Below, one piece after another: positions 45,668-61,613 of a stretch of 64,000 nt of DNA. Origin of the DNA: Bacillus sp. NP157 (GTDB lineage: Bacteria; Pseudomonadota; Gammaproteobacteria; Xanthomonadales; Rhodanobacteraceae); assembly GCA_018889975.1 (NCBI GenBank), contig CP076546.1:4743001-4807000 (forward strand), in the 5' to 3' direction. The translations under genes were made by a program, and so were the position numbers. Below the pieces are notes generated by a model. It was given only the letters and a program-made list of their open reading frames with translations, was not told the origin of the DNA and searched no databases. Positions within the stretch are counted from its first letter, which is position 1, and the number at the start of each line of letters is the position of its first letter.

Positions 45668-45698
45668 CCGGCACCCCGCAAGAATAAAACGCCCCCCT

Positions 45699-45720
45699 GT
45701 AGGAGCGCGCCCGCGCGCGA
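45699..45720 (+). repeat. REP palindrome (variant)
   Basis: Plus-orientation REP with CCC centre, in the divergent region between the Gfo/Idh and PhyH genes. Confidence 0.88.
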
Positions 45721-45761
45721 CCCCACAGAACGTAGCCCATCCTGACCATGTTGCACCGCAA

Positions 45762-45779
45762 TTTGCAAGCGCTTGCAAA
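45762..45779. promoter_or_regulatory. LacI/GalR-type operator
   Basis: TTTGCAAGCGCTTGCAAA, a perfect 18-bp palindrome with the central CG of LacI-family operators. It lies 95 bp upstream of the Gfo/Idh gene and 62 bp upstream of the PhyH gene, so one site can control both. The LacI-type regulator at 43486 is the obvious candidate ligand. Confidence 0.85.
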
Positions 45780-45840
45780 ACGGCCTAGCGTAGTCCCCGA
45801 CAAGACCCCTTTGCCGCCCCCGCGCGGCCGGAGACCCGCC

Positions 45841-46722
45841 ATGAATGCCGTTCGCCAGCCAGCCGTCGTCCCCCCGGTTTTCACCGAAGCCAACCTCGAT
45901 ACCGATGCCATCGTCCGCGAGCTGCTGGAAGGCATGGGTGCGGTGACCCTGCGTGGCCTGTTCACGCCCGAGGAGATCGCCGAAGCGCGCGACATCGTCA
46001 TGCGCGAATCCAACCAGGACGACCGCGGGTCCAAGGTCACCCATTTCCAGGGCGATGCGGAGAAGGCCGGGCGGATCAACCTGCAGCGGCGTGTTTGGAA
46101 CCTGCTCGCCAAGGGCGAGGTGTTCTCGCGGATGGCGGCGCACCCGGCGATCATGCAGGTAATGCGCGCCTTCCTCGGCAGCGAGTTCATCATGGGCTCG
46201 ATCGCCGCGAACCGTATCCTGCCCGGTGGCCCGGGGCAGGAGCCGCACATCGACTATCCGTACTGGGATTACCACTCGCCGCAGACCCACCCGACGCGAA
46301 TCAATGCGTCATTCCCGTTGAACGGGCAGGTGACGATCATGCTCGATCCGTTCACCGAGGAAACCGGCGCCACCGCCTACGTGCCCGGCACGCAGCGCGA
46401 GCTGCGCTACCCCGACGAAGGCGACGGCTTCTTCAGCCGCTGCGAGCGCATGCTCGGCGAACCGGGCGACACCGTCGTGTTCTTCGGCGCGGTGTGGCAC
46501 TGCGCGATGCCCAACCGCAGCAGCATCGATCGCACGGCGATCATCACCCAGTACCTGCCCAAGTTCGTCAAGCCGATGGAAGACCTGCCGGCGGCGTTGC
46601 CGGAGGCCTTCGTGAAGCAGGCCGGCCCGGATATCCGGCAGTTGCTCGGGTTGAACTATCCGTATCCGGAGGTGCTGGATGCGGCGCGTGGGGGGAATGC
46701 GGAGGGGAGGAAGCGGTATTGA
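45841..46722 (+). CDS. Phytanoyl-CoA dioxygenase (PhyH) family protein
   Basis: 293-residue Fe(II)/2-oxoglutarate oxygenase. The metal ligands are His and Asp of EPHIDYP (about 136-138) and a distal His in VWHCAMPNRS (about 219), with a 2-oxoglutarate-binding Arg candidate in SIDRTAIITQYLP. The substrate is unknown; divergent transcription from a sugar-type dehydrogenase under a LacI operator suggests a small oxygenated catabolite rather than phytanoyl-CoA. ATG at 45841. Confidence 0.9.
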   Translation: MNAVRQPAVVPPVFTEANLDTDAIVRELLEGMGAVTLRGLFTPEEIAEARDIVMRESNQDDRGSKVTHFQGDAEKAGRINLQRRVWNLLAKGEVFSRMAAHPAIMQVMRAFLGSEFIMGSIAANRILPGGPGQEPHIDYPYWDYHSPQTHPTRINASFPLNGQVTIMLDPFTEETGATAYVPGTQRELRYPDEGDGFFSRCERMLGEPGDTVVFFGAVWHCAMPNRSSIDRTAIITQYLPKFVKPMEDLPAALPEAFVKQAGPDIRQLLGLNYPYPEVLDAARGGNAEGRKRY

Positions 46723-46757
46723 GGGGTTGCAGCCCTGATGGGTTGTGGCGGATTCGG

Positions 46758-46779
46758 TCGCGCGCGGGCGCGCTCCTAC
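46758..46779 (-). repeat. REP palindrome overlapping a stop codon
   Basis: Minus-orientation REP (variant centre) whose GTAG head (46779-46776) provides the TAG stop of the hydrolase gene. Confidence 0.9.
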
Positions 46780-47633
46780 AGGGGGTGGGGGGTGCTGGTG
46801 GTTTTGATGAAGGTGTCGATGTCCTGGAGGACGGGGGCCTTGGCTTTCGAGGGGCCTAGCGCGAACAGGATGCTCATGTGGGTGATGCCGGGGTAGAGCT
46901 TGAGCGTGACCGGTTCGCCTTTGGTTTCGTAGTGTTTGGCGAGCGACTGTGCATTCGAAGGCTTCACCGTCGAATCGTCGTCGCCCTGCAGCAGCAACGC
47001 AGGCGGCTCGTCGCCGTCGACGAAGTTCACGGGCTGCGAGCGGGCCTGGGCCTCCGGGGTCTTGCCGAACATGTCGATGAAGTCGTCGCGTTTCAGCGGC
47101 AGGAAGTCGTACGGCCCGGCCAGGCCGATGAAGCCCGACAGCTGGCGGGGTTGCATGCCGACCTTGCCCAGCCATTGCTTATCAGTGGCGAGCAGCGAGG
47201 CGATATGCGCACCCGCCGAATGACCCATCACGTAGAGCCGCGAAGGATCGCCACCGTACTTCGCGACGTTCTCCCGGGCCCACGCCGTGGCGTGCGCGGC
47301 ATCGTCCATGAAGCCATCGAGCCGTGCCTTCGGCCACGTGCGGTAATCGGGGATCACCACGACGATCCCACGCGACGCGAGCGATTCGCCGACCCAGCGA
47401 TACCACTGCCGCTTGCCGCTTTTCCAGCTGCCGCCGTAGAAGAACACCACCACCGGCGCGTTCTTCGCGTCCGGCGGTGAGTAGACGTCGAGCGACAGCG
47501 CGCCATCGAAGGGGATGTCGTGGTGCGCGACGGTGTCGCCCGCGGGCTGGCGGGCATTTACCACGCCGAAGAGGGCGGACTGGCAGCCGGCGAGGAGCAG
47601 GGCGGCGAGGGAAGCGAGGATGAGTCGGGTCAT
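46776..47633 (-). CDS. Alpha/beta-hydrolase lipoprotein, twin 1
   Basis: 285-residue lipoprotein esterase of the BD-FAE/carboxylesterase type. The lipobox LLLAGC puts the lipidated Cys at residue 17. Features are the oxyanion segment VVVFFYGGSWKSGKR, nucleophile elbow VMGHSAGAHIA, Asp in LQGDDDSTV and His in PGITHMSILF. The closest relative in the window is the gene at 48210. The ATG at 47633 was used. The TAG stop falls in a REP. Probably acts on acyl esters at the envelope; substrate unknown. Confidence 0.88.
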   Translation of the reverse strand: MTRLILASLAALLLAGCQSALFGVVNARQPAGDTVAHHDIPFDGALSLDVYSPPDAKNAPVVVFFYGGSWKSGKRQWYRWVGESLASRGIVVVIPDYRTWPKARLDGFMDDAAHATAWARENVAKYGGDPSRLYVMGHSAGAHIASLLATDKQWLGKVGMQPRQLSGFIGLAGPYDFLPLKRDDFIDMFGKTPEAQARSQPVNFVDGDEPPALLLQGDDDSTVKPSNAQSLAKHYETKGEPVTLKLYPGITHMSILFALGPSKAKAPVLQDIDTFIKTTSTPHPL

Positions 47634-47769
47634 ACCCAACGTTTACGTACCGGGCGTGAAGACGGATGCAAAGATCGACTCGCGACCCCCTGGGTTTGTT
47701 GACACCGCCGGTTTGCAGCACCTATGTTCTTGCGATGCGTGCGTGCCGGGCACGGGAGTGGGAGAAAGC

Positions 47770-48174
47770 ATGGAGAGTGACGTGTGCAGCCCGCGACGCG
47801 TGCCCTCGTGGCGTTATCCGCCAGTCGCCATGCTCGTCCTGTCGTGCCTCGCCTCGGCCTGCGCCTCCTCGCCCGCGCATGTCGACGTCGTGCCAGGGAA
47901 GGTGGCGAAGCAGTGGGGATTCCCAGGCTGCGAGATATCCGTTCCGTTGAGCCCAGCCCAGGTCGTCGACGACGTGAAGACGCTCGGCGGTTCCGCACCG
48001 GAGACCTATCCCGAATGGAACCGACTGCTTTCGGTGCGACGGGACGGAGACCAGTTGCGCCTCGTCGATTGCACGCGTGAGCGTCGGAACCGCGACGTGG
48101 GCGACCCCTACTACTACGCGCTGTTTCGCGACGACAAAGTCATCGCTGAACTCCACTTTGCGTTCTTCGATTAG
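47770..48174 (+). CDS. Small lipoprotein of unknown function
   Basis: 134-residue putative lipoprotein. A signal segment PVAMLVLSCLASAC precedes the candidate lipidated Cys (about residue 31). The mature part is about 100 residues with two Cys (FPGCEIS, LVDCTRER) and VIAELHFAFFD at the end. GGGAGAAAGC before the ATG at 47770 supports this start, though the 15-residue lead before the hydrophobic core is long; an internal ATG at about 47830 would give a standard lipoprotein signal. It sits between the hydrolase twins on the opposite strand. Confidence 0.6.
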   Translation: MESDVCSPRRVPSWRYPPVAMLVLSCLASACASSPAHVDVVPGKVAKQWGFPGCEISVPLSPAQVVDDVKTLGGSAPETYPEWNRLLSVRRDGDQLRLVDCTRERRNRDVGDPYYYALFRDDKVIAELHFAFFD

Positions 48175-48209
48175 CGGCAGGCATGCGGCCCGGCCCTGTC
48201 AGACGCCGC

Positions 48210-49064
48210 TCAGTGGCCCGGGTGCCCGTGGATGAAGTCGATGGTGTCCGCCAGCGTGCTGGCCCGGTGCTTCATGGGGCCGAAGGAGAGGAGAAGGCCT
48301 TCGTGGCCGACGCCGGGGTAGAGCTTCAGCTCGGCCGCCTCGCCCGCATCGTTGTACCGCGCTTGCATGGACAACGCCTCCGAGGGATACACCTCGGTGT
48401 CTTTCTCGCCCTGTAGCAGCAACGCAGGCGGCTCATCGCCGTCGACGAAGTTCACGGGCTGCGACGCGGCCTGCGCCGCCGGTGACGTGCCGAACATGCC
48501 CAGGTAGTCGGCGTCGTCGTCGATCGGCAGGAAGTCGTACGTGCCTGCCACGCCGATCCATCCGGCGAGGTCGCGCGGCTGCATGCCCACGGTGGCCAGC
48601 CATTGTTTGTCGGTGGCCAGCATCGCCGCGATATGGCCTCCCGACGAGTGCCCCATCAGGAAGAGGTCGCCCGGCGCGCCGCCGAACTCGCCGATATGCT
48701 CGTGCACCCAGCCCACCGCCTGCACGGCGTCCGCGAGGAAGCCCGCCATCGGCACGATCGGCCAGAGCCGAATGTCCGGGACCACGGCCACGACCCCGTT
48801 ACGCGCCAGCGCCTCGCCCATCCAGCGGTCCCACTGCCGTTTCCCGTGCTGCCAGTCGCCGCCGTAGAAGTAGACGACGACGGGCGCGTTCGTGGCACCG
48901 GGCGGGGCGTACACATCCAGCGCCAGGTGGTGTACCGGGTCATAGACGATGCCGGGATGTGCCACGACGCCCGCGCCCGTTTGCGTCGCGTTGATGGTCG
49001 CGAAGAACGTCGCCCGGCAGCCGGCGAGGCCAAGCAAGGCGAGGGCGATAAGGACAAGGCGCAT
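48210..49064 (-). CDS. Alpha/beta-hydrolase lipoprotein, twin 2
   Basis: 284-residue paralogue of the gene at 46776. The lipobox LGLAGC gives Cys16; oxyanion segment VVVYFYGGDWQHGKR, nucleophile elbow LMGHSSGGHIA, QPVNFVDGDEPPALLLQGEKD and His in PGVGHEGLLLSFGP follow the same order. The ATG at 49064 was chosen because it gives a standard lipoprotein signal; the frame is open through a REP further upstream. The pair arose by duplication and is now separated by a small lipoprotein gene. Confidence 0.88.
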   Translation of the reverse strand: MRLVLIALALLGLAGCRATFFATINATQTGAGVVAHPGIVYDPVHHLALDVYAPPGATNAPVVVYFYGGDWQHGKRQWDRWMGEALARNGVVAVVPDIRLWPIVPMAGFLADAVQAVGWVHEHIGEFGGAPGDLFLMGHSSGGHIAAMLATDKQWLATVGMQPRDLAGWIGVAGTYDFLPIDDDADYLGMFGTSPAAQAASQPVNFVDGDEPPALLLQGEKDTEVYPSEALSMQARYNDAGEAAELKLYPGVGHEGLLLSFGPMKHRASTLADTIDFIHGHPGH

Positions 49065-49073
49065 CGCCCCATT

Positions 49074-49096
49074 GTAGGAGCGCGCCTCGCGCGCGA
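49074..49096 (+). repeat. REP palindrome with 1-bp insertion
   Basis: Plus-orientation REP with one extra C (GCGCGCCTCGCGCGCGA), between the hydrolase start and prmC. Confidence 0.8.
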
Positions 49097-49200
49097 CCAC
49101 GCGCAAGATCCCGCGTCCTCACCGAATGACCCACCCCTAAACGCCACCGGGTTCTCCACCCGCGCCCAACCGGCCTCCCACCACCCACCCCACCGCCCGC

Positions 49201-49206
49201 TAGAAT
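49201..49206 (+). promoter_or_regulatory. Candidate -10 box of prmC, leaderless
   Basis: TAGAAT in CCGCTAGAATCCCCCGCATG ends 7 nt before the prmC ATG. No Shine-Dalgarno. The string CCGCTAGAATCCC also precedes yebC. Confidence 0.5.
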
Positions 49207-49213
49207 CCCCCGC

Positions 49214-50038
49214 ATGACCGACGTCCGTACGATCCTGCGCCAGGCCAGCCACGCCCTCGGCGACCGCCTCGAGGCCGAGCTGCTGCTGGGCCATGCCCTG
49301 GGTGTGAACCGGGCCTGGTTCTTCGCCCACGCGGACGATGCGCTGCCCGCGGCCGACGAGGCCGTGTTCGACGCGCTGGTCCAGCGCCGCGTCGCCGGCG
49401 AGCCGGTGGCCTACATCACCGGGTATCGCGACTTCTGGTCGCTGGCGCTCGAAGTCACGCCGGCCACGCTGATCCCGCGTCCGGAAACCGAACTCCTCGT
49501 CGAACTCGCCCTGGTCCACCTGCCCGAAGGCGGCCGGCTGCTCGACCTCGGTACCGGCAGCGGCGCCATCGCGCTGGCAGTGGCGAAGGAACGACCCGAC
49601 GCCGTGGTGCACGCCGTCGACGCGAGTGCCGCCGCGCTGGATGTCGCCCAGCGCAACGCACGACGCCTCGGGCTGCGCGTGGCCTTCCATCACGGCGACT
49701 GGTTCGCGCCGCTGGGCGACGAACGCTACGACGTCATCGTCAGCAACCCACCGTATATCGAAGAGGCGGACGAACACCTGGCGAAGGGCGACCTGCGCTT
49801 CGAGCCGCGCTCCGCACTGGCCTCGGGCGCCGATGGCCTCGACGACATCCGGCGCATCATCGATGGCTCGCCGGCACATTTGCACGACACGGGTTGGCTG
49901 ATGTTCGAACACGGCTGGAACCAGGGCGACGCGTCACGCGCGCTATTCGACGTTCGCAGATGGTCGGATGTCACGACCACGCGCGACCTCGAGCATCGCG
50001 ACCGGGTCACCGGGGCCCGCTGGTCATCCCGCGCCTGA
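49214..50038 (+). CDS. prmC: Release-factor glutamine methyltransferase PrmC
   Basis: 274-residue SAM-dependent methyltransferase that modifies the GGQ glutamine of RF1 and RF2. The N-terminal helical domain precedes PVAYITGYRDFWSL, the SAM motif LLDLGTGSGAIALAVA (about 112-127) and the NPPY catalytic motif VIVSNPPYIEEAD (about 174-186). Its 3' end overlaps the convergent nadR by 15 bp. Confidence 0.95.
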   Translation: MTDVRTILRQASHALGDRLEAELLLGHALGVNRAWFFAHADDALPAADEAVFDALVQRRVAGEPVAYITGYRDFWSLALEVTPATLIPRPETELLVELALVHLPEGGRLLDLGTGSGAIALAVAKERPDAVVHAVDASAAALDVAQRNARRLGLRVAFHHGDWFAPLGDERYDVIVSNPPYIEEADEHLAKGDLRFEPRSALASGADGLDDIRRIIDGSPAHLHDTGWLMFEHGWNQGDASRALFDVRRWSDVTTTRDLEHRDRVTGARWSSRA

Positions 50039-51082
50039 CAATGCGCCTGCCGTCGCAAGCGATGCAGCGGCCGCGGCACAGCGCTGCTCCCGATCACCCC
50101 GCAACAGCGTAAACGGCATCCCGCGACGGCCAAGCTCGTCGAGGTACCACGCATGCTGCCGGTCGCGGAACGCTTCGTCCTGGCGCGTGCCGTCCTGCAC
50201 GAACGGGAATTCCGGGGCGCACAGGAAGACGTGGTCGTAGCGCCGCGCGGCAAGCGCCTCCAGCAGCGGATCCGCACGACCGAACAGCGCATGGTTGTAG
50301 AACAGCGTCGTCAAAGGACTGGTGTCGCAGACCAGCCAGCCGAGCGCGCCGCGTGCCGCCTCGTCCTCGCGCGCGCATTGCACCTCGCCGATGTGCAGCA
50401 TGTCGTCGTAACGCAAGGCGCCGTCGCGCGCCACCCACAACTCGCGGCCGTACTCGTCGACATGCGTGGTATCGAGGCGCGTGGCGAGGTCGACGCACAG
50501 CGTGCTCTTGCCGGTCGATTCGCCACCGAGGATGCACGCGCGGCGCACATAGTCTGCGTGTACCTCGGGAGCCAGCCAGCGTCGGGCGGCGGCCGGGTCC
50601 TGGCGGATCCGTGTCGCCGAGACGGGGATCGTGGCGCGCTCGCGATCGACGCTCACGTGTTCGACGACGCCCGCGTAGCCCGGCACATGGGTCGTGAACC
50701 AGTCCGTGAGCGACGCGGCGAAGCCGCGGCCGTAGTCCTCGCTGGTGAACACCACCTCGAAGGTGGTGCCCAGCACATCGGTGCACAGCCAGCAGGCGAA
50801 CGCACGTTGCACGTCGTCCGGTTCGTCGTTGTGGGGGATGCGTCGCGTGTGCCCGGCAGCCGCGAGGCGTGCGTCGTCGAGGACCACGATGCGCGCCGCG
50901 CGTGGGAAACGCAGGCGCAACCAGCGCTCCCGGGTCGCCGCATCGCAGCGCTCGAACGACGGCTGGCTGTACGCCAGCACGGTCAGCTCGTCGCATGCGG
51001 CGAGCGCCTGGTTCACGAGGTACTCGTGGCCCAGGTGCAGCGGCGAGAACTTGCCGACGACGAGGCCACGCCGCAGGCTCAC
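50024..51082 (-). CDS. nadR: NadR-type NMN adenylyltransferase / ribosylnicotinamide kinase
   Basis: 352-residue bifunctional enzyme. The N-terminal nucleotidyltransferase part starts LVVGKFSPLHLGHEYLV (HxGH at 16-19) and has the ISSxxIR-like PVSATRIRQDP. The C-terminal kinase has P-loop ILGGESTGKST (186-194). There is no N-terminal helix-turn-helix, so unlike enteric NadR it is not a repressor. With PnuC it forms a nicotinamide riboside salvage route to NAD. The GTG at 51082 overlaps the pnuC stop (GTGA). It is last in the seven-gene operon from 57886. Confidence 0.93.
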   Translation of the reverse strand: MSLRRGLVVGKFSPLHLGHEYLVNQALAACDELTVLAYSQPSFERCDAATRERWLRLRFPRAARIVVLDDARLAAAGHTRRIPHNDEPDDVQRAFACWLCTDVLGTTFEVVFTSEDYGRGFAASLTDWFTTHVPGYAGVVEHVSVDRERATIPVSATRIRQDPAAARRWLAPEVHADYVRRACILGGESTGKSTLCVDLATRLDTTHVDEYGRELWVARDGALRYDDMLHIGEVQCAREDEAARGALGWLVCDTSPLTTLFYNHALFGRADPLLEALAARRYDHVFLCAPEFPFVQDGTRQDEAFRDRQHAWYLDELGRRGMPFTLLRGDREQRCAAAAASLATAGALSGAG

Positions 51083-51663
51083 GCCGCCGCCCCGGCGTCG
51101 GCCTCGGCATTCGGCGTGCGTGCCAGTCGCCACCAGTAGCGCCAGGCGATGATCGCGTTCACCCAGTACACCGCGTAGAGGCCCGCGGTGAGGTACAGGC
51201 CGCGGCTGAGGTAGAGCGGCACCGCCACGCTGTTGACCAGCAGCCAGAATGGCCATGTCGCCACGTCGCGACGCATCAGCAGCACCTGGGCGAGCACGCT
51301 GAACGCAAGCACGGTGGAGTCCGCGAACGGCTGGTAAGCCTGCGTATAGCGGTGCAGGAGCATGCCGTAGCCGATCGTCGCGACGATGGCGGCGAGCGTG
51401 GCCAGGCCGATCACGCGCCAGCTGCTGGCGTCGCTGACCGGTTTCTCGCTGGACCCACGCACCCAACGGATCCAGCCGAGGATGCTGGTGACGACGAAGA
51501 AAACCTGCAGCAGCACGTCGGCGTAGAGGTGCGCGTCGTAGAACACCACGGTGAACACGGCGCAGCCGACCAGCCCGGTCCACCACGTGTGCACGCTGTT
51601 GCGGCCGGCGAAGAGGATGGAGGCGGTGGCGAGCAGGTTGGCGATGAGTTCGAGCGGGGTCAC
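51079..51663 (-). CDS. pnuC: PnuC nicotinamide riboside transporter
   Basis: 194-residue inner-membrane transporter with about seven hydrophobic segments. The N-terminal ELIANLLATASILFAGRNSVHTWWTG and the WPFWLLVNSVAVPLYLSRGLYLTAGLYAVYWVNAI motif (substrate-binding W/N residues) are typical of PnuC. The GTG at 51663 overlaps the upstream stop (GTGA), and its own stop overlaps the nadR GTG. It imports the substrate phosphorylated by NadR. Confidence 0.94.
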   Translation of the reverse strand: MTPLELIANLLATASILFAGRNSVHTWWTGLVGCAVFTVVFYDAHLYADVLLQVFFVVTSILGWIRWVRGSSEKPVSDASSWRVIGLATLAAIVATIGYGMLLHRYTQAYQPFADSTVLAFSVLAQVLLMRRDVATWPFWLLVNSVAVPLYLSRGLYLTAGLYAVYWVNAIIAWRYWWRLARTPNAEADAGAAA

Positions 51664-53006
51664 GTCAGTCCAGCGGCGAGGTCGGTGGTGTATTGCAGGG
51701 GCTTGGCATCGGGCGCGTCGCGCTGCACGCGTATGGCCACGGGGCCGAGCAGGCGGTGCAGTGGCGCGAGCGCCGCATCGTCGCCGCCGTGGAAGCTTAG
51801 CGGCAAGGTCAGCGTGAACGCGCCATCGGCATGCTGGTGCACGCTGAAATGCGACAGCGGAAGATGCCCCAGCGCGTGGGTCACGTCCACGTTGTTCACC
51901 CAGCCACCGTCGGCGCAGCGAAAGCGCACCGGACGGCGACCGCCGAAGTCGAGCAGCACGGGCTCGCCGGCGTGCTCGCCCGCGGCGGCGAAGTCACCGG
52001 TGCGATAGCGCAGCAGGGGCAGGTAATCGTTGAAGCCGCCGGAGACGACGATCTCGCCGCGCTCGCCTTGCGCCGCACGCGTGCCGTCGTCGCGCAGGAT
52101 CTCGATATACAGGCGGGGTTGCAGCGGGACGTGGCCACCGGCCGCGTCGTCGTAAACGGCCACGGGGCCGACTTCGTTCATCGAATAGATGTCGAGCACC
52201 GGGCAGCCGAAGCGCGCGGCCAGGGCATCGCGCAGGCCCGGCGACAGCATCATCGACACCGACAGCAGCGCGCGTGGCCGGACCCGTGTTGGCACGCGCA
52301 GCAGTTCGGCGAAGGACAGCGGATCGCCGGCAAGGAACTCGGGGTCCATCGCGTCGAGCCACGCCTCGCGGTCGGCGGGCGACTGCCAGTCGCCGGGATG
52401 CAGGTTGATCTTCGCCAGCCCGGATTCGCCGGTCTGTGGGGTCACCGAGGTGTAGGTGAAGCAGCGCGACTGGTGGCCGAGCAGGATCACGCCCACGCGG
52501 TCGGCGCCGCCCACGGGCTCGATCCCGACCCGGCGCAGTGCGCGGCGGTGGTGGGTGAGGTAGCGGCCCGCCACGCGCGGATGCGAGGGCACCAACATCG
52601 GGTGGCCGGTGGTGCCGGTGGTCTGGAACTGGACCAGCCGGTCCAGCGGCAGGCTGTCCGGCACGAAGCTGGCGACGTCCGCCGCGAGCATCGCGCGCGA
52701 CAGCGGCTGGATGTCGCTGAAGCGCCGTGGCGGCGCACCGAGCGCGCGGTAGTGCGGCACCTCGCGGAAGGCATGCGCGACCACCCCGGCGAGCCACGCG
52801 GGCTCCGTGCCGTTGATCGACGGCACCGGCGAGCCCGCCATGGCCTGTTCGTAGCCGGCGAGGTCCGCGAGATCGTCGTCGCGCAGCCGGTTACCGCTGG
52901 CCTGGGTGAACCGCGGTGCCGCCGGATGCTCGCGCATCCGCCGGAGCATCGCGCGGCCGGCGTCGCTCAGGGTCGGATAGCGGTCGGTATCGGTGGCTTC
53001 GGTCAT
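51660..53006 (-). CDS. PaaK/CapK-like adenylate-forming enzyme
   Basis: 448-residue ANL-superfamily protein resembling phenylacetate-CoA ligase and CapK. The ATP loop is TTGTTGHPM (129-137), SMNEVGPV matches the A5-like motif, and LRYRTGDFA carries the ribose-binding Asp. The acyl substrate is unknown, and no carrier protein or thioesterase is adjacent. ATG at 53006 overlaps the upstream stop (ATGA) and its stop overlaps pnuC, which ties an acid-activating enzyme to both the VWA genes and NAD salvage. Confidence 0.85.
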   Translation of the reverse strand: MTEATDTDRYPTLSDAGRAMLRRMREHPAAPRFTQASGNRLRDDDLADLAGYEQAMAGSPVPSINGTEPAWLAGVVAHAFREVPHYRALGAPPRRFSDIQPLSRAMLAADVASFVPDSLPLDRLVQFQTTGTTGHPMLVPSHPRVAGRYLTHHRRALRRVGIEPVGGADRVGVILLGHQSRCFTYTSVTPQTGESGLAKINLHPGDWQSPADREAWLDAMDPEFLAGDPLSFAELLRVPTRVRPRALLSVSMMLSPGLRDALAARFGCPVLDIYSMNEVGPVAVYDDAAGGHVPLQPRLYIEILRDDGTRAAQGERGEIVVSGGFNDYLPLLRYRTGDFAAAGEHAGEPVLLDFGGRRPVRFRCADGGWVNNVDVTHALGHLPLSHFSVHQHADGAFTLTLPLSFHGGDDAALAPLHRLLGPVAIRVQRDAPDAKPLQYTTDLAAGLT

Positions 53007-53587
53007 TCACGCGTCCACTTGTCGGCCGATTCGGCGGCTGCCTTCTTCGCCAGCGCTTCGCGGATCGCCCGTGCCCGTTCCTCGGCGCTGCGTGCCGCTT
53101 CCAGCAGGCGTGCGCGTTCCACGCCGCTGATCGACGACAGCCGGTCGGTCGCTTCCGCGCGCGCTTCGCCCGCCGGGCGATAGCCAAGCCGGGCAAGCGC
53201 CGTGCGGGCCAGTTCTTCGCGGCGCTCGGCATCGTGCACGAAACGGTCCGCGCTGCCACCGGCGACCAGCTCGGCGGCGGCCTGGTCGAGCACCTGCAGC
53301 AGGCCCTCGCGCGCGGGCTTCGCGTCGACGAACCAGTCGTCGGCGAGCAGCCAGGTGGTGACCTGGACCAGCATCAGGCGGTTGCGATCGGCGCGTGCAT
53401 CGCCGGAGACATAGCGACGCAAGGCCGACGCGTCGACGCGATGCCCGTGCAGGCGCAGCAGGTCGTGCACCAGCGCAGCGACGCGCACGGTGCCCGCCGC
53501 CGCGACGCGCGGTTCGTCGAGGAATTCCACCGGCGTTTCCGCGAGACGGCGGGTCAGTGTTTCAAGGACGGGGCCTTCGCGTTCCAT
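53003..53587 (-). CDS. Unknown helical protein of the MoxR-VWA operon
   Basis: 194-residue cytoplasmic protein, largely helical, no signal peptide and no recognised family. The middle contains VRVAALVHDLLRLHGHRVDASALRRYVSGD and LMLVQVTTWLLADDWFV; the C-terminal third is a charged coil (ARLLEAARSAEERARAIREALAKKAAAE). The ATG at 53587 shares one base with the upstream stop (TGATG); its stop overlaps the next ATG. Likely an adaptor or partner of the AAA+/VWA proteins, by context only. Confidence 0.75.
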   Translation of the reverse strand: MEREGPVLETLTRRLAETPVEFLDEPRVAAAGTVRVAALVHDLLRLHGHRVDASALRRYVSGDARADRNRLMLVQVTTWLLADDWFVDAKPAREGLLQVLDQAAAELVAGGSADRFVHDAERREELARTALARLGYRPAGEARAEATDRLSSISGVERARLLEAARSAEERARAIREALAKKAAAESADKWTRE

Positions 53588-55362
53588 CAGGCGGCTTCCC
53601 TGTTGCGGTAATGCTGGTCGCTGAAGGCGCGGGCGAACGCGACCAGGTCTTCCATCGTCGCGCAGGGGTGGATGGCCCAGCCCTGTTCGTCGCGTGCGCG
53701 GCGCAGGTCGCCGAACCACTGGCCCGAGGTCCAGTTCGCGGGGATATTCAGCGCCATGGTGCCGCCGGCGCGACCGACGGCGAGTGCATGCGCGCTGATG
53801 TCCCAACCGCTGAGCCCCTGCTCGTCACGGGCGAACATCGTGTCGATGCCGGCATCGGAAATCATCAGGATATGCACCGGGCGATCGTGCGGGCGCCGCG
53901 CAGCGAAGGTCTCGCGCAGCCGGTGGATGGGAAAGGCGGTGGCGCCACCGTAGTAGCCGGTGAGCACGCGCAGGATCGCGTCTTCGTCGCGAACGAAACC
54001 CTCGGTGTGCATGTACTGCTGCTTGCCGCTCCACAGCGTCGCCTGCACGCGCGAGCCCGTGCGCAGGGCGGACAGCGCGATGATCGCGCCGGCCAGGGCG
54101 AGGTACGAGGTGTGCTGTTGCGGGTTGGGCATCGAGCCGGAACTGTCCACGTAGATGTCGAGGTCGACCGGGATGACGTCCTGCTCGCGCCCCGGCGACA
54201 CGCCCATGGTCCGGCGCACGGTGGTCACGCCGGGAATGATCCGCGGCGACACCAGCACGCTCTGGAACCAGTCGATGTCTTCGACGGCGTCGCCCACTTC
54301 CCAGGTTTCCAGGCCTTCGGGCAAGGGCTCGGGGGATTCGGGCGCGCGTCGCGTCGGGAACGGCACGAGGTCGGGCAGGGCGCGTTCGCGGTAGTAGCGC
54401 ACGGCGATGTCGTGTTCGCTGCGGGTGACGCCCGCGGCCTTGAGGATCTCGCCGTATTCGAATGGCTCGCGTGCCTGGCCGGTGGATCGCTCGTTCGATG
54501 TCGCGGGCTCGACGGGTGCCGTCCGCTCGCCGGAGAGACCCGGATCCTCGCTGGGATGGATGCCGCCGTCGAGTTCGTCGCTCTCCACGTCGACCAGTCC
54601 GCTCGGCTCGCAGTGTTCGGCGGCCATCCGCGTGTCGTGCAGGTAACCCAGCGCATCCGATCCGTGGGTGTCTTCGACCAGGTATTCCAGCAACAGGGTG
54701 GCGAAGCGCCCGGCGGCATGCAGCCACTCGCCGCTGTAGACGCGGATCAGCCGCGCGCCAAGCCACGCGTCGCCGCGGATGCGCACGTCGTCGACGGCGC
54801 CGCCGAGGCTGCCGCGCGGCAGGCTCCACAGTTCTTCGTAGATGCCCATGTACAGCATCCACAGGCGGTTGTCCGGCGACGCGGGCGTGGCCCTGGCCAG
54901 GCGCCGGTAGACCTCGTCCATGCGCAGCCCGGCGCGGCGCTGCAGGCGGTCGTTGATGAACAGGTCGGTGTAGAGGTTGGCCACCATCGGCGCATGCCGT
55001 TCCAGCGTGGGCAACGCGCGACGCATGCGCGCGAGCAGGCGGAACTGGTCGGAGGCCGTCGCGGGGGCCAGCACGTGGTGGCCGATTTCGTGGGCGAGCA
55101 CTTCCACGGCGAGGTCATCCAGGCCGAACCGCGCCACCGTTTCCATGTCGATCACCACGCTCTGGTCGAACAGGCGGATCATCGCGAAGCTGCCGCTCAG
55201 CCCTTCCTGCGCCGCTTCCACGCGCGTATCGCACAGGCGCGGATCGCGCAGGCGGGTGAAGCGGCTCCAGCAGGCCAGTGCGGCCGGCCACGCGGTGCGC
55301 CAGGCGGCCAGGCGCTCGCCCGGCGTGGGTAGCGGCGGGGGTGTTGTCGTGGCCTCGCTCAT
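53587..55362 (-). CDS. HExxH metalloprotease-like and VWA-domain protein
   Basis: 591-residue cytoplasmic protein. Near the N-terminus is VEVLAHEIGHHVLAP, a zinc-protease HExxH motif at His91-Glu92-His95. A long middle region follows. The C-terminal VWA domain has the MIDAS motif DIYVDSSGSMPNP (Asp406, Ser408, Ser410), a Thr candidate in GGATAFP (about 475) and Asp in MISDAGID (about 503). VWA proteins of this kind work with MoxR ATPases, here the gene at 56306. A third zinc ligand was not identified. It overlaps both neighbours (ATGA and TGATG). Confidence 0.88.
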   Translation of the reverse strand: MSEATTTPPPLPTPGERLAAWRTAWPAALACWSRFTRLRDPRLCDTRVEAAQEGLSGSFAMIRLFDQSVVIDMETVARFGLDDLAVEVLAHEIGHHVLAPATASDQFRLLARMRRALPTLERHAPMVANLYTDLFINDRLQRRAGLRMDEVYRRLARATPASPDNRLWMLYMGIYEELWSLPRGSLGGAVDDVRIRGDAWLGARLIRVYSGEWLHAAGRFATLLLEYLVEDTHGSDALGYLHDTRMAAEHCEPSGLVDVESDELDGGIHPSEDPGLSGERTAPVEPATSNERSTGQAREPFEYGEILKAAGVTRSEHDIAVRYYRERALPDLVPFPTRRAPESPEPLPEGLETWEVGDAVEDIDWFQSVLVSPRIIPGVTTVRRTMGVSPGREQDVIPVDLDIYVDSSGSMPNPQQHTSYLALAGAIIALSALRTGSRVQATLWSGKQQYMHTEGFVRDEDAILRVLTGYYGGATAFPIHRLRETFAARRPHDRPVHILMISDAGIDTMFARDEQGLSGWDISAHALAVGRAGGTMALNIPANWTSGQWFGDLRRARDEQGWAIHPCATMEDLVAFARAFSDQHYRNREAA

Positions 55363-56309
55363 CGCGGCAGGGGCTGCACGCAGATGACGTGGCTGAACGG
55401 CGAACTGATCGCCAGCGCGTCGGCATGCGCGACGACGGCCAGTTCGTCCGCGGGCAAGCCGTGTTCGCCGAGCCGGGCACGCCATGCGGCGTCCGGCCGG
55501 CCCGGCGCGCGCGCCGCGTGGAACTCATCGGCTGTCGCCGGCAGCAGGGCCGCGCCGTAGGCGTCGGCGACCAGCGCGAAGAAACGCTCGCCGCTGCGCA
55601 CGACGAAGCGCGCCGCATCCGCTCGCACCTCGGGAGGTTCGGGGAACACGCCGCCGAAGCCGGTGAACGCACCCACGTCGCGCAAGGCCTCCACGCGTCC
55701 CGACGGCTGCCACCAGGGATCGGCGGCGTGTCCGTCGAGCAGCGGCTGCAGCGCTTCGCCCTCCGCGCCGAGCGCGGCGCTGGCGAGCGCGGCGGGCAGC
55801 TGCGCGGCAAGGCGCAACGCACCGTCGCGGTAGGTCGGCATGCCGGCACGCCACGCGAGCACCTGGCCGACGGCACGCCACTGCGTGACGGTCTCGCAAC
55901 GCGGCGACAGCGTGGCGAAGCTTTCCAGCCAGATGGCCTGGCGGGCACCGGGCGCCTGCGCGATGCGTAGCGTGGCGTGGCTCAGCGCGCCCAGCACGCT
56001 GTCCGGCTGCACCGCGATCAGCGCGCTGGCAGGCACGGCCAGGCGCTCCCACGCCGCGCTGACGGCGACCAGCGACGCGCTTGCGCGGCCTGCCAGTTGC
56101 AGGCACAGGTGATATCCCGCCAGCGTCACCGCGGCCTGGCGTTCCGACGGCACGGCGGCGACCACCGCATCGAGCGGGCCGGCCAGCAGGGCGGCGAAGG
56201 CCTCGGTATCGAAGGCGGGGTATTGGTGGCGCGCCGTGGCGACGCGTGCATTGAAGTCGTTGCGACCCGCCGCCAGCACGCGTGCGAGGGCCGGTCCGAC
56301 GCGCTTCAT
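55359..56309 (-). CDS. Unknown protein between MoxR and VWA genes
   Basis: 316-residue cytoplasmic protein, Ala- and Leu-rich, no signal or recognised domain. It has regularly spaced helices (ERQAAVTLAGYHLCLQLAGRASASLVAVSAAWERL) and a C-terminal segment with RFVVRSGERFFALVADAYGAALLP. Start ATG 56309 and stop at 55359 overlap both neighbours by 4 bp (ATGA), so its product is made in step with the ATPase and VWA protein. Possibly a scaffold or substrate adaptor; function unknown. Confidence 0.78.
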   Translation of the reverse strand: MKRVGPALARVLAAGRNDFNARVATARHQYPAFDTEAFAALLAGPLDAVVAAVPSERQAAVTLAGYHLCLQLAGRASASLVAVSAAWERLAVPASALIAVQPDSVLGALSHATLRIAQAPGARQAIWLESFATLSPRCETVTQWRAVGQVLAWRAGMPTYRDGALRLAAQLPAALASAALGAEGEALQPLLDGHAADPWWQPSGRVEALRDVGAFTGFGGVFPEPPEVRADAARFVVRSGERFFALVADAYGAALLPATADEFHAARAPGRPDAAWRARLGEHGLPADELAVVAHADALAISSPFSHVICVQPLPR

Positions 56310-57886
56310 TGCGCGCGCAGCCACTGCAGGTAGTTGGTGTAGCGCTGGTGCAGGTATTTCAGCTTCACCAGGTCGTCGTAGATGTGGCCATACAGCTTGC
56401 GGCCCTTCGTGCGTTCTTCGACGAGGTGTTCGATCGCGGCGAGGCGGCGGCGCACGTCACGCTCGGCCACGCCGTCGAGGCCCCTGGCGAACTCCTCGGA
56501 GGCCTTGCCGACCGGGTCGTCGCGATCCAGGTCGAACTGGTCGTAATCCGCGTTGGACAGGTCGAGCAGGTGGCGCAGCCAGCTATAGGTGTCGGTGCGG
56601 TATACCGCGTTTTCCGGCAGGCCGAAGAACGGCGAGTCCAGGTCCGGGTGCAGCTTGCCGTGCAGGACGAAGGGCACCACCTGGCGCAGGTCGTCCAGCG
56701 CAACGGATTCGTTGCCGCGGAAGAACGCCATGGCCTTGGCGTACACCAGCAGGGTCAGCAGGGTGCGTACCGAAAGGCCGTTGCGGGTCTGGCAGCCGAT
56801 GTCTTTCAGGCGATCGCGACCGGTGTCGGTGGCGGTGAGCCGGTTCCAGTCACCGCCGGCCAGGCGCGCCGCGTCCTTGGTCATGTACTCCAGCTGCTGG
56901 CCGGCCACTTCCATGAATTCGAACTGGCTGGCGAAGAACTCCAGCCGGCGACGCACGTCCGCGGGGACCTCGATCGCGCGGATCCGCCGCGACATCGCGT
57001 CGATCTCTTCCGCGCTGAACACGATCTCCGGCGGGACCATGTCTTCGGGACGCACGTCGCCTTCGATCCGCAGCAGCAGGTCGTCGAGGAAGCGCGGGTT
57101 GAACGCCAGCGCCTGCACGGTGACGTCGATGCGATCGCGCAAGGCCTCGATCACCTGGTAGGTGCCGCCACCGAGGTCGTCGTTGGCGGTGAGGTACCAC
57201 GCCGATTCCGGACACTCGTAGACGTGGTTTAGTACTTCGGCGTAGTTGTCGCCCATCAGGGTGAGCAGGGCGCTTTGCGTGCGGGTGGGGATGCGGTTGT
57301 ATTCGTCGACGATCTTCACCCGCATGCCCAGCCAGCGACGCCAGGCGATGCGGATGTCGTCCATGTCCTGCGCGGTGGCGAGGTCGGCGGGCAGCGGGTT
57401 GCCGAGCAGGTCGGCGACGGTCATCTGCGGATGGCCGTGCTGCATCGCGCGCTTCACCTCACGCAACGGGTAGCCGGCGAGCACGCCCATCAGCGTGGCG
57501 CTGGCGGTCTTGCCGCGGCCGGGTCCGCCGACCAGCAGGCATTTGCGCCGCGTGGCGAAGGTCAGCAGGGGCAACAGGACGAAGCTGGAATAGCTCTGCG
57601 CGGAGGGCAGCACCAGCGTGCGACGGGTGTCGCCGATGCTGAAGCTCGGCGCCGGGCCTTCGTTGAATTCGATGTCGTAATGCGGGCTGATGATCGCGTT
57701 GTTGACGATCCAGAAGTACGCCTGGCGCAGCTTCTCGTCGAGGGTCAGCGCCTCGCCCGGTGCATCGGCGCCGGTGTCGAGCGGGCCGGCATACAGGTTC
57801 TCGACATCGAACTCGCGCGCGGCGGGCGCGTTCTTCGGGTGGGTCGGCGCTTGCGACACGCGCTGGAAGAATCGAAAACCCGGCAT
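56306..57886 (-). CDS. MoxR-like AAA+ ATPase
   Basis: 526-residue AAA+ ATPase, first gene of the operon. Walker A is GGPGRGKT (120-127), Walker B KIVDEYN (191-197), sensor 1 AWYLTANDD (Asn235), and a distal arginine-finger region EALRDRIDV follows. Residues 1-110 form an unusual N-terminal extension and the C-terminal 200 residues are helical. It is longer than classical MoxR (about 330). It is predicted to remodel a target with the VWA protein at 53587. The ATG at 57886 follows AAGGA by 5 nt. Confidence 0.9.
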   Translation of the reverse strand: MPGFRFFQRVSQAPTHPKNAPAAREFDVENLYAGPLDTGADAPGEALTLDEKLRQAYFWIVNNAIISPHYDIEFNEGPAPSFSIGDTRRTLVLPSAQSYSSFVLLPLLTFATRRKCLLVGGPGRGKTASATLMGVLAGYPLREVKRAMQHGHPQMTVADLLGNPLPADLATAQDMDDIRIAWRRWLGMRVKIVDEYNRIPTRTQSALLTLMGDNYAEVLNHVYECPESAWYLTANDDLGGGTYQVIEALRDRIDVTVQALAFNPRFLDDLLLRIEGDVRPEDMVPPEIVFSAEEIDAMSRRIRAIEVPADVRRRLEFFASQFEFMEVAGQQLEYMTKDAARLAGGDWNRLTATDTGRDRLKDIGCQTRNGLSVRTLLTLLVYAKAMAFFRGNESVALDDLRQVVPFVLHGKLHPDLDSPFFGLPENAVYRTDTYSWLRHLLDLSNADYDQFDLDRDDPVGKASEEFARGLDGVAERDVRRRLAAIEHLVEERTKGRKLYGHIYDDLVKLKYLHQRYTNYLQWLRAQ

Positions 57887-57906
57887 GGCGTTCCTTCGTG
57901 TCGGGA

Positions 57907-57932
57907 CGCACGCACCGGGCCCGGTGCGTGCG
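57907..57932. promoter_or_regulatory. Perfect 26-bp palindrome between dxs and the MoxR operon
   Basis: Arms CGCACGCACCGGG/CCCGGTGCGTGCG with no spacer, 20 bp before the MoxR-like start and 16 bp after the dxs stop. No T-run follows on the minus strand, so it is not a standard terminator. It could be an RNA processing hairpin or a repressor operator for the operon. Confidence 0.55.
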
Positions 57933-57948
57933 CGTTGGATCGTTCGGG

Positions 57949-59844
57949 TTAACCCGCGCTGGCCACCGCCGACGCCACGAACTGCGGGAAACGCCCGCGG
58001 ATCGCGCTGCGGATCTGCGGCAGGTCGAGGCCGGCCATGGTCAGCACTTCTTCGCGGCTGCCGTGTTCGAGATATTCGTCGGGCAGGCCGAGGTGGTAGA
58101 TCGGCAGGGTGACGCCCTTCGCCGCGAGGAACTCGGCGACGCCTGCGCCGGCGCCACCGGCGACGGCGTTGTCCTCGATGGTGACGAAGGCCTGGTGGGT
58201 GCGCGCGAGCTCGAGGATGAGCTCTTCATCCAGCGGCTTGACGAAGCGCATGTTGGCCAGCGTGGCGTCGACTTCCGCGGCGATGATCGCCGCCGGGGCG
58301 AGCATGGTGCCGAAGGAGAGGATCGCCAGCCCATGGTGGCCGCGACGACGGATCTCGCCCTTGCCGATCGGCAGCGTCTCCAGGCCTTCGCTGATCTTCG
58401 CGCCCGGGCCAGTGCCGCGCGGATAGCGGATCGCGGCCGGGCCGTTATAGGCATAGCCGGTGCTCAGCATCATCCGGCACTCGTTCTCGTCGGCGGGCGC
58501 CATGATCACCATGTTCGGCAGCACGCGCAGGAACGACATGTCGAAGCTGCCGCAGTGGGTCGCGCCGTCCGGGCCGACCACGCCGGCGCGGTCGATCGCG
58601 TAGGTCACGTCGAGGTTCTGCAGGGCGACGTCGTGGATGGCCTGGTCGTAGGCACGCTGCAGGAAGGTGGAGTAGATCGCCACCACCGGCTTCGCGCCCT
58701 CCACGGCCATGCCGGCGGCGAGCGTGACCGCATGCTGCTCGGCGATCGCCACGTCGAAATAGCGCTGCGGGTATTCCTTCGAGAAACGCACCAGGCCGGA
58801 GCCTTCGCGCATCGCCGGGGTGATGCCGAGCAGGCGCTCGTCGGCAGCGGCCTGGTCACAGAGCCAGTCGCTGAAGATGTCGGTATAGGTCGGCTTGGCC
58901 GGCACGCCCTTCTTCACCAGGCCCGCGATGGGGTCGAACGGACCCACGGCGTGGTATTCGATCTGTGCCTTTTCGGCAGGTTCGTAGCCCTTGCCCTTGG
59001 TCGTCATCACGTGGAGCAGCTGCGGGCCGGGCAGGTCCTTGACCATTTCCAGCGCCTGGACCAGCTGGCCCATGTTGTGGCCGTCGATCGGCCCGGTGTA
59101 ATGGAAACCGAGTTCCTCGAACAGCGTGGACGGCACGAACATGCCCTTGGCGTGTTCTTCCCAGCGCTTGAAGAAGCGGCCGAAGAAGGACTCGCGCGGC
59201 ATGGCCTTCTTGGCCCGCTCGCGCCACGCATTGAGGGTGCGGCTGGACATCGCGCGCGCCGCCATCTTGGTCATGGCGCCGACGTTCTCGCTGATCGACA
59301 TGCCGTTGTCGTTGAGGATCACCAGCATGTTCGGCTCGACGTCGCCGCCGTGGTTCATGGCTTCGAAGGCCATGCCGGCGGTGAACGCGCCATCGCCGAT
59401 CACGGCGACCACCTTGCGGTTGTCCCCACGGCGCTGCAGGGCGATGGCCATGCCCAGCGCGGCCGAGATCGAGGTCGACGAATGGCCGACGCCGAAGGTG
59501 TCGTACTCGCTTTCGTCGCGGCGCGGGAACGGCGCCAAGCCGTCCTTCTTCTTGATCGTGGTGATCCGGTCACGGCGGCCGGTGAGGATCTTGTGCGGGT
59601 AGCACTGGTGGCCGACGTCCCAGACCAGGCGGTCCTTCGGGGTCTCGAACACGTGGTGCAGGGCCACGGTGAGCTCCAGCACGCCCAGGCCCGAGCTGAA
59701 ATGCCCGCCCGACGAGGCCACGGCCTCGATCAGGTAGCGGCGCAGCTCGTCGGCGATCGCCGGCAGTTCGTCCGCCGAGAAACGGCGGAGATCCTCCGGC
59801 GAGTCGATCTGCGCCAGATAGGGATAGTTCGAGAGGTCGTTCAT
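57949..59844 (-). CDS. dxs: 1-deoxy-D-xylulose-5-phosphate synthase
   Basis: 631-residue thiamine-diphosphate enzyme, first step of the MEP isoprenoid pathway. The N-terminal [26 protein letters not shown] motif [18 protein letters not shown]...ILNDN, and the transketolase central domain [18 protein letters not shown] are visible. Normal length. It is followed after 63 bp by the MoxR-VWA operon on the same strand, separated by a perfect palindrome. Confidence 0.97.
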
Positions 59845-59910
59845 CCGCCTATTGTTCGCCCAAGCAGGGGGCGGGGCAAGGACCAGCGTGTGAAAAAACG
59901 AAGGCGAGCC

Positions 59911-60519
59911 TTACCCCGGGCGGCGATCCCGGGGCAGGTGGCTGACCAGGAACTCCATCTGGTCGGCCAGGATGTTGCGGTTGGACAGGATCAGGTGCTC
60001 CACCCAGCTCGGCCGGTAGGGCACGGCCAAAAGCGGCATATTCGCCTGGTGTGGGGTCCGGTTGCTCTTGCGCAGGTTGCAGGCAAGGCAGGCGCTGACC
60101 ACGTTTTCCCACTCGTCCGCGCCCTTCTTGGAGATGGGCACGACGTGGTCGCGGGTGAGCTCGTGGCGGGTGTACTGATGGCCGCAATACAGGCAGATAT
60201 GCCGGTCGCGGGCGAACAGGGCGGTGTTGGTGAGGGCGGGCGCCGGATCGATGGCATGTTCGCGGCAATGGCCGGTGCTGGCCACGATCGGGTGCAGTTC
60301 CAGGCTGCTGCGCAGGCCTGAGGCGCGGCTGATGCCGCCGCGGACGGTCACGCAGGGATCGCCCAGGGTCCAGGCCACGACCCCGCGTACATAGAGGCAA
60401 ACCGCGTCCTGCCAGCTGATCCAGTCGAGGATGCGGCCGGAGGCATCGAGCGAGAGCACCCGCGTGGCGTGCAGCGCAGCCACTTTCGGCAGGTCCTCCT
60501 GGAGCACTTCCATCGTCAT
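59911..60519 (-). CDS. HNH endonuclease family protein
   Basis: 202-residue protein with a C-terminal HNH domain: zinc-ribbon Cys pairs CLYCG and CLACN surround TRDHVVPISKKGADEWENVVSAC, with the catalytic His in DHVVP and Asn in ENVVSAC. The N-terminal 90 residues (VLSLDASGRILDWISWQDAVCLYVRG) are a typical leader of this McrA-like housekeeping group. The start is at 60519 or 60513. Located 66 bp upstream of dxs on the same strand. Biological target unknown. Confidence 0.9.
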   Translation of the reverse strand: MTMEVLQEDLPKVAALHATRVLSLDASGRILDWISWQDAVCLYVRGVVAWTLGDPCVTVRGGISRASGLRSSLELHPIVASTGHCREHAIDPAPALTNTALFARDRHICLYCGHQYTRHELTRDHVVPISKKGADEWENVVSACLACNLRKSNRTPHQANMPLLAVPYRPSWVEHLILSNRNILADQMEFLVSHLPRDRRPG

Positions 60520-60776
60520 CTAGTCTCGTCCTTCACGTGCGCGAAAGAGCGTTCCAGCAAGCCGAACTCCGTGCGGGCCATGGGGTGGCCCCGCCCTTTA
60601 CGAGGGCGTTCGCCCGAGCATAGCCCATAATTACGACAGAAAAGCATCGCCGCGGTATGGATCTTGCGGGGCTTTTCCTGTTCCGCGCCGCTGATATAGT
60701 GGGCGTTCGATTCGAGACCGACGGGTTTGGAAGGGGGGCCGGGGTGGCTTCCCAGGCCTGGCGGGTCCAAGAGGGA

Positions 60777-61544: not shown

Positions 61545-61565
61545 TCGCGGCGTCACGCTGGATAA

Positions 61566-61597
61566 CGAAAAAGGCCGCCTTCGGGCGGCCTTTTTCG
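61566..61597. terminator. Bidirectional intrinsic terminator
   Basis: Stem GGCCGCC/GGCGGCC with TTCG tetraloop, flanked by AAAAA on the left and TTTTT on the right, symmetrical to CGAAAAA/TTTTTCG. It serves both sapC (plus) and the convergent GNAT gene (minus). Confidence 0.95.
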
Positions 61598-61613
61598 TGC
61601 CACCCGGTCCGCT

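Follow-up and report, generated by a model that had tools for sequence, protein, structure and literature searches.

A recurrent gene cassette joining a MoxR-VWA pair and two orphan proteins to an adenylate-forming enzyme and NAD salvage: a possible maturation or biosynthesis module

Our analysis of a window of 64,000 nucleotides (nt) of Bacillus sp. NP157 DNA (contig CP076546.1, positions 4,743,001 to 4,807,000; Rhodanobacteraceae by GTDB) centred on seven genes at 50024-57886, minus strand, which recur as a cassette of roughly 8-9 kb. They encode a MoxR-type AAA+ ATPase, an orphan protein of 316 amino acids (aa; u316), a protein with a VWA domain and an N-terminal HEIGHH motif, a second orphan of 194 aa (u194), a PaaK-like adenylate-forming enzyme, and the PnuC and NadR proteins of nicotinamide adenine dinucleotide (NAD) salvage. 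We found the cassette in 11 distinct genomes belonging to three family-level groups, and in all 11 the seven genes keep an identical order and direction. As judged from sequence comparison, the block is shown to be one gene module, its parts standing together in every copy found. MoxR-VWA operons were already known; the combination with two orphans and an NAD arm is new. We tentatively propose, with a probability of about 0.4, that the cassette is a maturation or biosynthesis module, the single steps being less certain.

The genes lie between dxs and prmC. Read in the direction of transcription, MoxR (56306..57886, 526 aa) is the first gene, followed by u316 (55359..56309), the VWA protein (53587..55362, 591 aa), the helical protein u194 (53003..53587), the PaaK-like enzyme (51660..53006, 448 aa), the nicotinamide riboside (NR) transporter PnuC (51079..51663, 194 aa) and NadR, a nicotinamide mononucleotide (NMN) adenylyltransferase and ribosylnicotinamide kinase (50024..51082, 352 aa), whose 3′ end runs 15 nt into the end of prmC. 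All six junctions overlap, their sequences from MoxR to NadR being ATGA, ATGA, TGATG, ATGA, GTGA and GTGA; these coordinates and junctions, first described from the letters of the window, were confirmed. Several overlaps are kept across the cassettes: the spacing is -4 nt between PaaK and PnuC in 11/11, between u194 and PaaK in 10/11, and between PnuC and NadR in 9/11. The MoxR-u316 junction is less strict (-4 to +16 nt), and at the u316-VWA junction the choice of start codon is uncertain. With one seven-gene order in 11/11 cassettes and several kept overlaps, the arrangement probably exceeds chance.

All seven genes were present in each of the 11 cassettes, at 32-79% identity to those of the window and with near-constant lengths. 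The cassette is rare: a full-length homologue of the VWA protein occurred in 5 of the 233 genomes sampled from the window's family, in 3 of 369 from its class and in 3 of 398 from its phylum; the family to which G397 belongs gave 4 in 277 genomes, and that of a Polaromonas metagenome-assembled genome (MAG) gave 2 in 299. These samples overlap, the first three include the window's own genome, and few first-look candidates were scored per genome, so that cassettes may have been missed. Weak VWA matches were excluded from these counts, namely 5 of 10 in the window's family (E 0.002-0.009) and 5 of 8 in the class (E 3e-6 to 3e-4; three were examined as open reading frames, ORFs). By eye, the weak matches L021, L022 and L024 look like YpfJ-type HExGHH zinc peptidases and not whole-protein relatives. 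Named relatives include Stenotrophomonas sp. SY1 (L016, which is G397 DNA) and the Polaromonas MAG (L017); L016 and L026 are the same DNA, with identical ORFs.

The association of PnuC and NadR with the MoxR-VWA genes, which the sequence-only reading had proposed from gene overlap, is strongly supported by the comparison of copies. Far from being usually unlinked in relatives, the two parts were linked in 11/11 cassettes, a count made from the VWA protein, so that it describes what accompanies VWA, and VWA-less remnants would escape it. When the 23 genomes of the genus were searched, a cassette-type NadR (E<=1e-5) was present in two, G000 and G110, which are exactly the cassette carriers, and the site between dxs and prmC is otherwise empty of the cassette. 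The distance matrices of the eight protein families, including the additional one described below, correlate with r 0.85-0.98 over eight cassettes, values that are descriptive given the related rows. As no other such NadR was found in the genus, the cassette probably introduces a new NR route to its host.

The functions of PnuC and NadR can be assigned by homology. PnuC matched PF04973 (NMN_transporter) with 157.2 bits (cut-off 27.3) and TIGR01528 with 80.4 bits (cut-off 42.45), and it has a solved relative, 4qtn. NadR matched AAA_28 (PF13521) with 113.8 bits, its cytidylyltransferase match fell just under the Pfam cut-off, and against TIGR01526 it scored 151.9 bits, under the curated equivalog cut-off of 341.15; it aligns in both domains to the solved proteins 9x6f, 8x7f, 1lw7 and 6gye. 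It opens directly at the adenylyltransferase motif and thus leaves no room for an N-terminal helix-turn-helix. To follow the active sites across cassettes we counted patterns that were chosen by us after the alignments had been viewed. RNxxHTWWxG and LYADVxLQ of PnuC were found in 11/11 and one further motif in 10/11; in NadR, GKFxPLHxGH, the kinase P-loop, the second adenylyltransferase motif and CDTxPLxT were found in 11/11 and EYGR in 10/11. The cassette that departs from a motif kept in ten others is L062, or L061 in the case of YRTGD of the PaaK-like protein. All reading frames used stop at natural-looking lengths. Flags of a premature stop in PnuC of L015, L061 and L062 and in NadR of L017 were set aside, since the lengths (189, 189, 185 and 345 aa) resemble those of other members and the flags can be read as alignments overrunning a natural stop; the single stops listed for L058 and L059 were read likewise.

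The PaaK-like protein obtained 28.3 bits with AMP-binding, just under the Pfam cut-off of 29.9. Its best curated match was NF045666 (DVU_1553 family; 63.8 bits, cut-off 300), and against TIGR02155, the PaaK phenylacetate-CoA ligase (CoA, coenzyme A), it scored 29.7 bits with a cut-off of 646.3. It matched a phenylacetate-CoA ligase in the PDB, 2y4o, with E 2.2e-12. Two of its motifs were present in 11/11 cassettes, and TTGTTGHP and YRTGD each in 10/11.

MoxR matched AAA_3 and AAA_lid_2 above the Pfam cut-off and is 526 aa long in 11/11 cassettes. Its Walker A motif GGPGRGKT, DEYNRI, TAND and ALRDR were found in 11/11 and LSVR in 10/11. The VWA protein had a weak match to VWA_2 (E 0.04, under the Pfam cut-off), five of the seven members of its alignment (A3) matched VWA_2 weakly (best E 0.006), and a profile search of PDB sequences gave no match. 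HEIGHH (residues 91-96, 55075..55092, minus strand) and the DxSxS of the metal-ion-dependent adhesion site (MIDAS; residues 406-410, 54133..54147, minus strand) are invariant in A3 and in 11/11 cassettes, and the full MIDAS pattern DxSxS-T-D, GGxTxFP and SDxGI were likewise found in 11/11. A DUF2201-like reading of this HEIGHH-plus-VWA protein was rejected, as there was no such Pfam match up to E 10.

The two orphans had been singled out in the sequence-only reading as the key novelty, and the searches bear this out: there was no significant sequence match or PDB fold in the libraries covered. We compared u316 among the cassette copies and against family and fold libraries. For the window's copy, Pfam, NCBIfam and PADLOC held no matching family up to E 1, and PHROGs had none up to E 0.01; when seven members were run against Pfam, three single-member matches appeared (best E 0.0016), which we took as chance. 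A profile search of PDB sequences returned nothing. AlphaFold2 (AF2) predicted a helical N-terminal domain and a beta-rich C-terminal domain (pLDDT 83, pTM 0.69), and this model had no Foldseek match at E<=0.001 in the PDB or BFVD. For u194, scanned against the family libraries with the window's copy alone, none of Pfam, NCBIfam, PADLOC and PHROGs gave a significant match (the best, in NCBIfam, had E 0.016), a profile search of PDB sequences gave haemoglobin alone at E 0.9 and above, and the AF2 model (pLDDT 84; residues 143-193 modelled as a single helix) had no Foldseek match in the PDB at E<=0.001. Both models, at pLDDT 83-84, were built from just seven sequences. Among the 369 genomes of the class sample, u194 was seen in the three cassette genomes, with one further partial match of 17.7 bits. 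Two of its motifs are present in 10/11 cassettes. Its C-terminal tail (ESADKWTRE in the window, 53006..53032, minus strand) is nearly invariant, reading ESADKWxRE-stop in 10/11 and ASADKWTRE in the eleventh, and the tail codons differ at synonymous sites, which argues that selection acts on the protein. These results support the view that u316 and u194 are new families, as far as the searched libraries reach.

The description of the operon as a set of seven genes held for the window, while among the relatives eight genes are commoner: in 8/11 cassettes VWA and u194 are separated by a radical S-adenosylmethionine (SAM) gene that codes for about 320 aa and whose overlap with VWA is 4 nt in 8/8. 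Its protein carries CX3CX2C, GGEP and the C-terminal patterns CSFT and CxDC; the first is present in 7/8 and the C-terminal cysteine patterns in 8/8, and it scores below every curated cut-off among the matches listed. In the exception, L061 (10957-11928 in reading orientation), the cysteine pattern is unmatched and GGEP is kept, and this copy may be divergent or inactive. The gene is lacking in the window, L016 and L062. In the window its slot is closed to TGATG (53585..53589, minus strand); tblastn found no radical SAM gene at 45001-62000 (best E 0.45), and elsewhere in the window's own genome there was a single partial match (E 1.2e-6). Short gaps mark the slot in L016 (11762-11851, 90 nt) and L062 (reverse complement 10053-10106, 54 nt). 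Because L012, the sister of the window in the trees, bears the gene, the window's lineage most likely lost it; repeated gain is a possible alternative. A precursor-peptide reading was rejected: when ORFs of at least 60 aa were compared around the loci of eight relatives (two of them the same DNA, and L060-L062 standing outside the set), no flanking ORF recurred near the cassette among the matches listed.

To get clues about transcription we examined the upstream region. A -10-like hexamer with at least 5/6 matches to TATAAT lies 32-36 nt before the MoxR start in 8/11 cassettes. In 2000 shuffles that kept the base composition of the upstream sequences, the hexamer turned up on average in 0.37 cassettes and at most in 3, never in 8, and 21 control windows within coding sequence had the hexamer in 0 or 1 of 11. 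This supports a single promoter upstream of MoxR. A sigma-70 scan of the window's region returned no promoters (0.5 expected), and terminator-like sites there were at chance level (4, with 4.1 expected). The gap of 62 nt between dxs and MoxR (57887..57948, minus strand) holds a perfect, loopless 26-bp palindrome at 57907-57932, which occurs nowhere else in the window even when 3 mismatches are allowed and could be a dxs terminator or a regulator site. The window's cassette may depend on read-through from dxs.

The surroundings of the cassette differ among the eight loci compared. Among the matches listed for the window, L012-L017, L026 and L027 there was no conserved neighbour beyond the cassette, the exceptions among the flanks being remote matches of 31-32% whose positions do not correspond, and the flanks of L016 and L026, which are identical; the window's dxs and prmC matched none of the 10 other loci. 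Across 22 dxs loci in the 23 genomes of the genus, MoxR follows dxs in the window's genome only. At the 21 other loci, prmC comes directly after dxs, no more than about 110 nt away, in 12, lies about 1.2 kb away in G110, and is absent within the 1.5 kb examined after dxs in 8. G110, of the same genus, carries its cassette elsewhere (G110:C1:67846, with dxs at 1372409). In 7/7 core gene trees the window paired with L012, and L013 with L015, which is the G110 copy; L012 and L013 come from genera other than that of the window and G110. Support for the window and L012 ran from a low 0.48 (MoxR) to 0.98 (VWA), was also low for NadR (0.61), and reached 1.00 in the concatenated tree; L017 and L062 (both from the Polaromonas family) grouped with this pair. 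From the different surroundings, the empty dxs-prmC site and the cross-genus sister pairs it seems that the block was transferred entire more than once, and together these comparisons indicate a cassette that is rare, patchy and horizontally moved as a unit.

Base composition was also recorded: the GC content of the window's cassette is 0.700 vs 0.669 in its flanks, 3.1 points higher, and the cassette exceeds its flanks in 9/11 loci, the reverse holding for L017 (0.514 vs 0.604) and L027 (0.625 vs 0.637). No match to the VWA protein was found in 72,556 plasmid records or 50,697 phage records, none of 96 pattern hits in IMG/VR was confirmed, MoxR had no match in the plasmid collection, and queries with the PaaK-like and radical SAM proteins found remote relatives only in plasmids. 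A scan of 19 flank proteins, taken from 7 of the 10 other loci, gave a Pfam match for 14 and none for 5; those matched are proteins of ordinary metabolism, regulators, proteins of the surface or of transport, and one Fic protein.

MoxR-VWA machines are widespread, and for many of them we know of no client. As in NorQ-NorD and RavA-ViaA, a MoxR ATPase and a VWA protein with an intact MIDAS are encoded in one operon, and, as in NorD (PMC9976466), the VWA domain is C-terminal, behind a large N-terminal region. Unlike those systems, the cassette has HEIGHH in the VWA protein, u316 between MoxR and VWA, the orphans, the PaaK-like enzyme, PnuC and NadR, and no nitric oxide reductase (NOR), Rubisco or respiratory target was recognised in it. 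The PaaK-like protein shares adenylate-forming motifs with AMP-dependent CoA ligases of the PaaK/DVU_1553 type; none of the cassette's genes was recognised as belonging to a pathway that would use or yield a CoA product. The eighth gene of the relatives resembles radical SAM/SPASM maturases (TIGR04053, NirJ, PapB) in CX3CX2C and C-terminal cysteines and departs from them in that the curated matches listed are far under cut-off and no precursor-peptide gene was recognised among ORFs of at least 60 aa. PnuC and NadR are adjacent and keep their motifs as in PnuC-NadR salvage; unlike plain salvage genes, the pair ends a MoxR-VWA cassette in 11/11, and NadR falls under the TIGR01526 cut-off. Matches in PHROGs were to PnuC, NadR/kinase/cytidyltransferase (phrog_3462 for NadR) and generic radical SAM families only. 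No earlier account of the gene set was found in the literature searched, most subscription journals being outside its coverage.

The reading of the cassette as a maturation or biosynthesis module is supported by the fixed gene order, the correlated distances, the shared sister pairs, the pattern of NadR in the genus, the kept active sites, the -10 element, a metabolic gene content (adenylate-forming enzyme, radical SAM enzyme, transporter and NadR) and the precedent of NorQD, which is described as serving metal insertion (PMC13036017). By analogy with NorQD or RavA-ViaA, MoxR and VWA would form an ATP-driven remodelling or maturation machine, whose clients would most likely be the cassette's own u194 and/or u316. 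The MIDAS of VWA might grip u194 by its nearly invariant acidic C-terminus, because the MIDAS of NorD has been proposed to bind an acidic residue contributed by its target (PMC9976466). The PaaK-like enzyme would convert a carboxylate into its activated acyl-adenylate form, and in cassettes that encode a radical SAM enzyme this would add a modification. PnuC and NadR would take in NR and yield NAD+, so that an acquired pathway might bring its own NAD, or an NMN/NAD building block. All complexes and clients, and all functions beyond those of PnuC and NadR, are proposals of this kind.

Several results weigh against this proposal. No client enzyme, product or substrate was recognised, and there was no sign that the NAD made serves other cassette proteins. 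The PaaK-like protein meets no curated ligase cut-off, its eight NCBIfam matches lying far below, and the radical SAM enzyme, absent in 3/11 cassettes, cannot be essential everywhere. The proposed client u316 is the least conserved cassette protein (33-52% identity to the window among seven relatives), and the -10-like hexamer is absent upstream of MoxR in the window, L012 and L062.

The sequence-only reading had offered, besides an NAD-linked maturation system, a conflict system. If it is one of the vWA-MoxR kind, MoxR-VWA would assemble u316 and u194 on infection, an effector so far unrecognised would act, and PnuC-NadR would restore the NAD+ that the invader, or the system's own activity, uses up. 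The outline fits, as MoxR, vWA and an extra dedicated component make up the systems described by Kaur et al. (2020; PMC7159879), one class of which includes a radical SAM gene standing on its own, and the cassette has MoxR, vWA and dedicated extras in 11/11; it is rare, patchy and horizontally moved, and phages are reported to carry NadR for NAD+ reconstitution (PMC9503650; compare phrog_3462). The details fit less well. PADLOC at E<=1 had no match for 6/7 window proteins and one weak Csx3 match for the PaaK-like enzyme (E 0.042). We recognised no effector, whether a toxin, a nuclease, a TIR protein or one of another kind, and by Pfam there was no FtsH or second AAA+ protein and no beta-propeller among the window's cassette proteins. 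The third core component of the published systems is VMAP-C, iSTAND, double FtsH or a beta-propeller protein; with the general Pfam models these were unmatched in seven u316 members and in the window's u194, and a divergent one may still be present. The parts are constant in 11/11 except for radical SAM, unlike the variable, displaceable effectors of conflict systems, and the P-loop is GGPGRGKT in 11/11 and not the GXXXTAKS that is frequent in subsystems 3 and 4 (both as described in the same text). 'Acyl', 'adenylat' and 'NADase' occur 0 times in the main text of PMC7159879. No defence system was seen among the 19 flank proteins, and phage, plasmid and viral-contig collections were without a match to VWA, as was the plasmid collection for MoxR. 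We regard a conflict system, which these tests do not support, as possible and as the main rival; of the shared function once suggested for the operon, the linkage of parts stands, and a maturation-type module is the form of it that we favour.

What probability remains is divided among salvage, hitch-hiking and readings not yet conceived. An operon for NAD homeostasis, in which NR salvage is the purpose and the other proteins regulate or assemble the uptake, would account for PnuC and NadR being kept with their motifs in 11/11 and for what is probably a new NR route in a genus with no other such NadR; yet both proteins generally work elsewhere without such partners, and five large genes would be an odd cost for salvage, which makes this reading rather improbable. 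That the genes share no task at all, being held together by overlap and co-transfer, has in its favour that overlapping genes are hard to part and that the block is mobile. We give this very little credence: seven genes are kept in 11/11 at 32-79% identity with catalytic motifs and lengths, whereas genes carried along without selection would by now be degraded or missing, and none of the 11 cassettes, all found via VWA, lacks PnuC-NadR or MoxR-VWA.

A more specific version of the maturation module can be imagined, in loose analogy to pincer-nucleotide synthesis and NorQD. NadR may build PnuC-imported NR to NMN or NAD, the PaaK-like enzyme may adenylate a carboxylate, possibly the C-terminal Glu of ESADKWxRE in u194, the radical SAM enzyme, in cassettes that have it, may modify the product, and MoxR-VWA with its HEIGHH may install it, together with a metal, in u316 or u194. 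The cassette would then make a nicotinamide-derived cofactor or a nucleotide-modified protein and represent a new cofactor-and-insertase module; as one joint claim this is a long shot.

The cassette bundles a putative MoxR-VWA machine with its likely clients and chemistry on one transferable block, and through it a connection of AAA+ remodelling with radical and adenylation chemistry and with NAD metabolism can be put to the test. Natural experiments are at hand in relatives that carry or lack the cassette and in copies that have or lack the radical SAM gene.

Some minor observations concern the neighbourhoods. The dxs-prmC interval (L028-L049) may be insertion-prone in the genus. In the Polaromonas MAG a gene with a Fic/DOC domain adjoins the cassette (L017:16577-17209). 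In the window, 46776-47639 and 48210-49106, both on the minus strand, encode similar lipoprotein-like alpha/beta hydrolases, by eye an apparent duplication, and 59911-60519 on the minus strand, just upstream of dxs, encodes an HNH-like protein, with CxxC and DHVVP recognised by eye.

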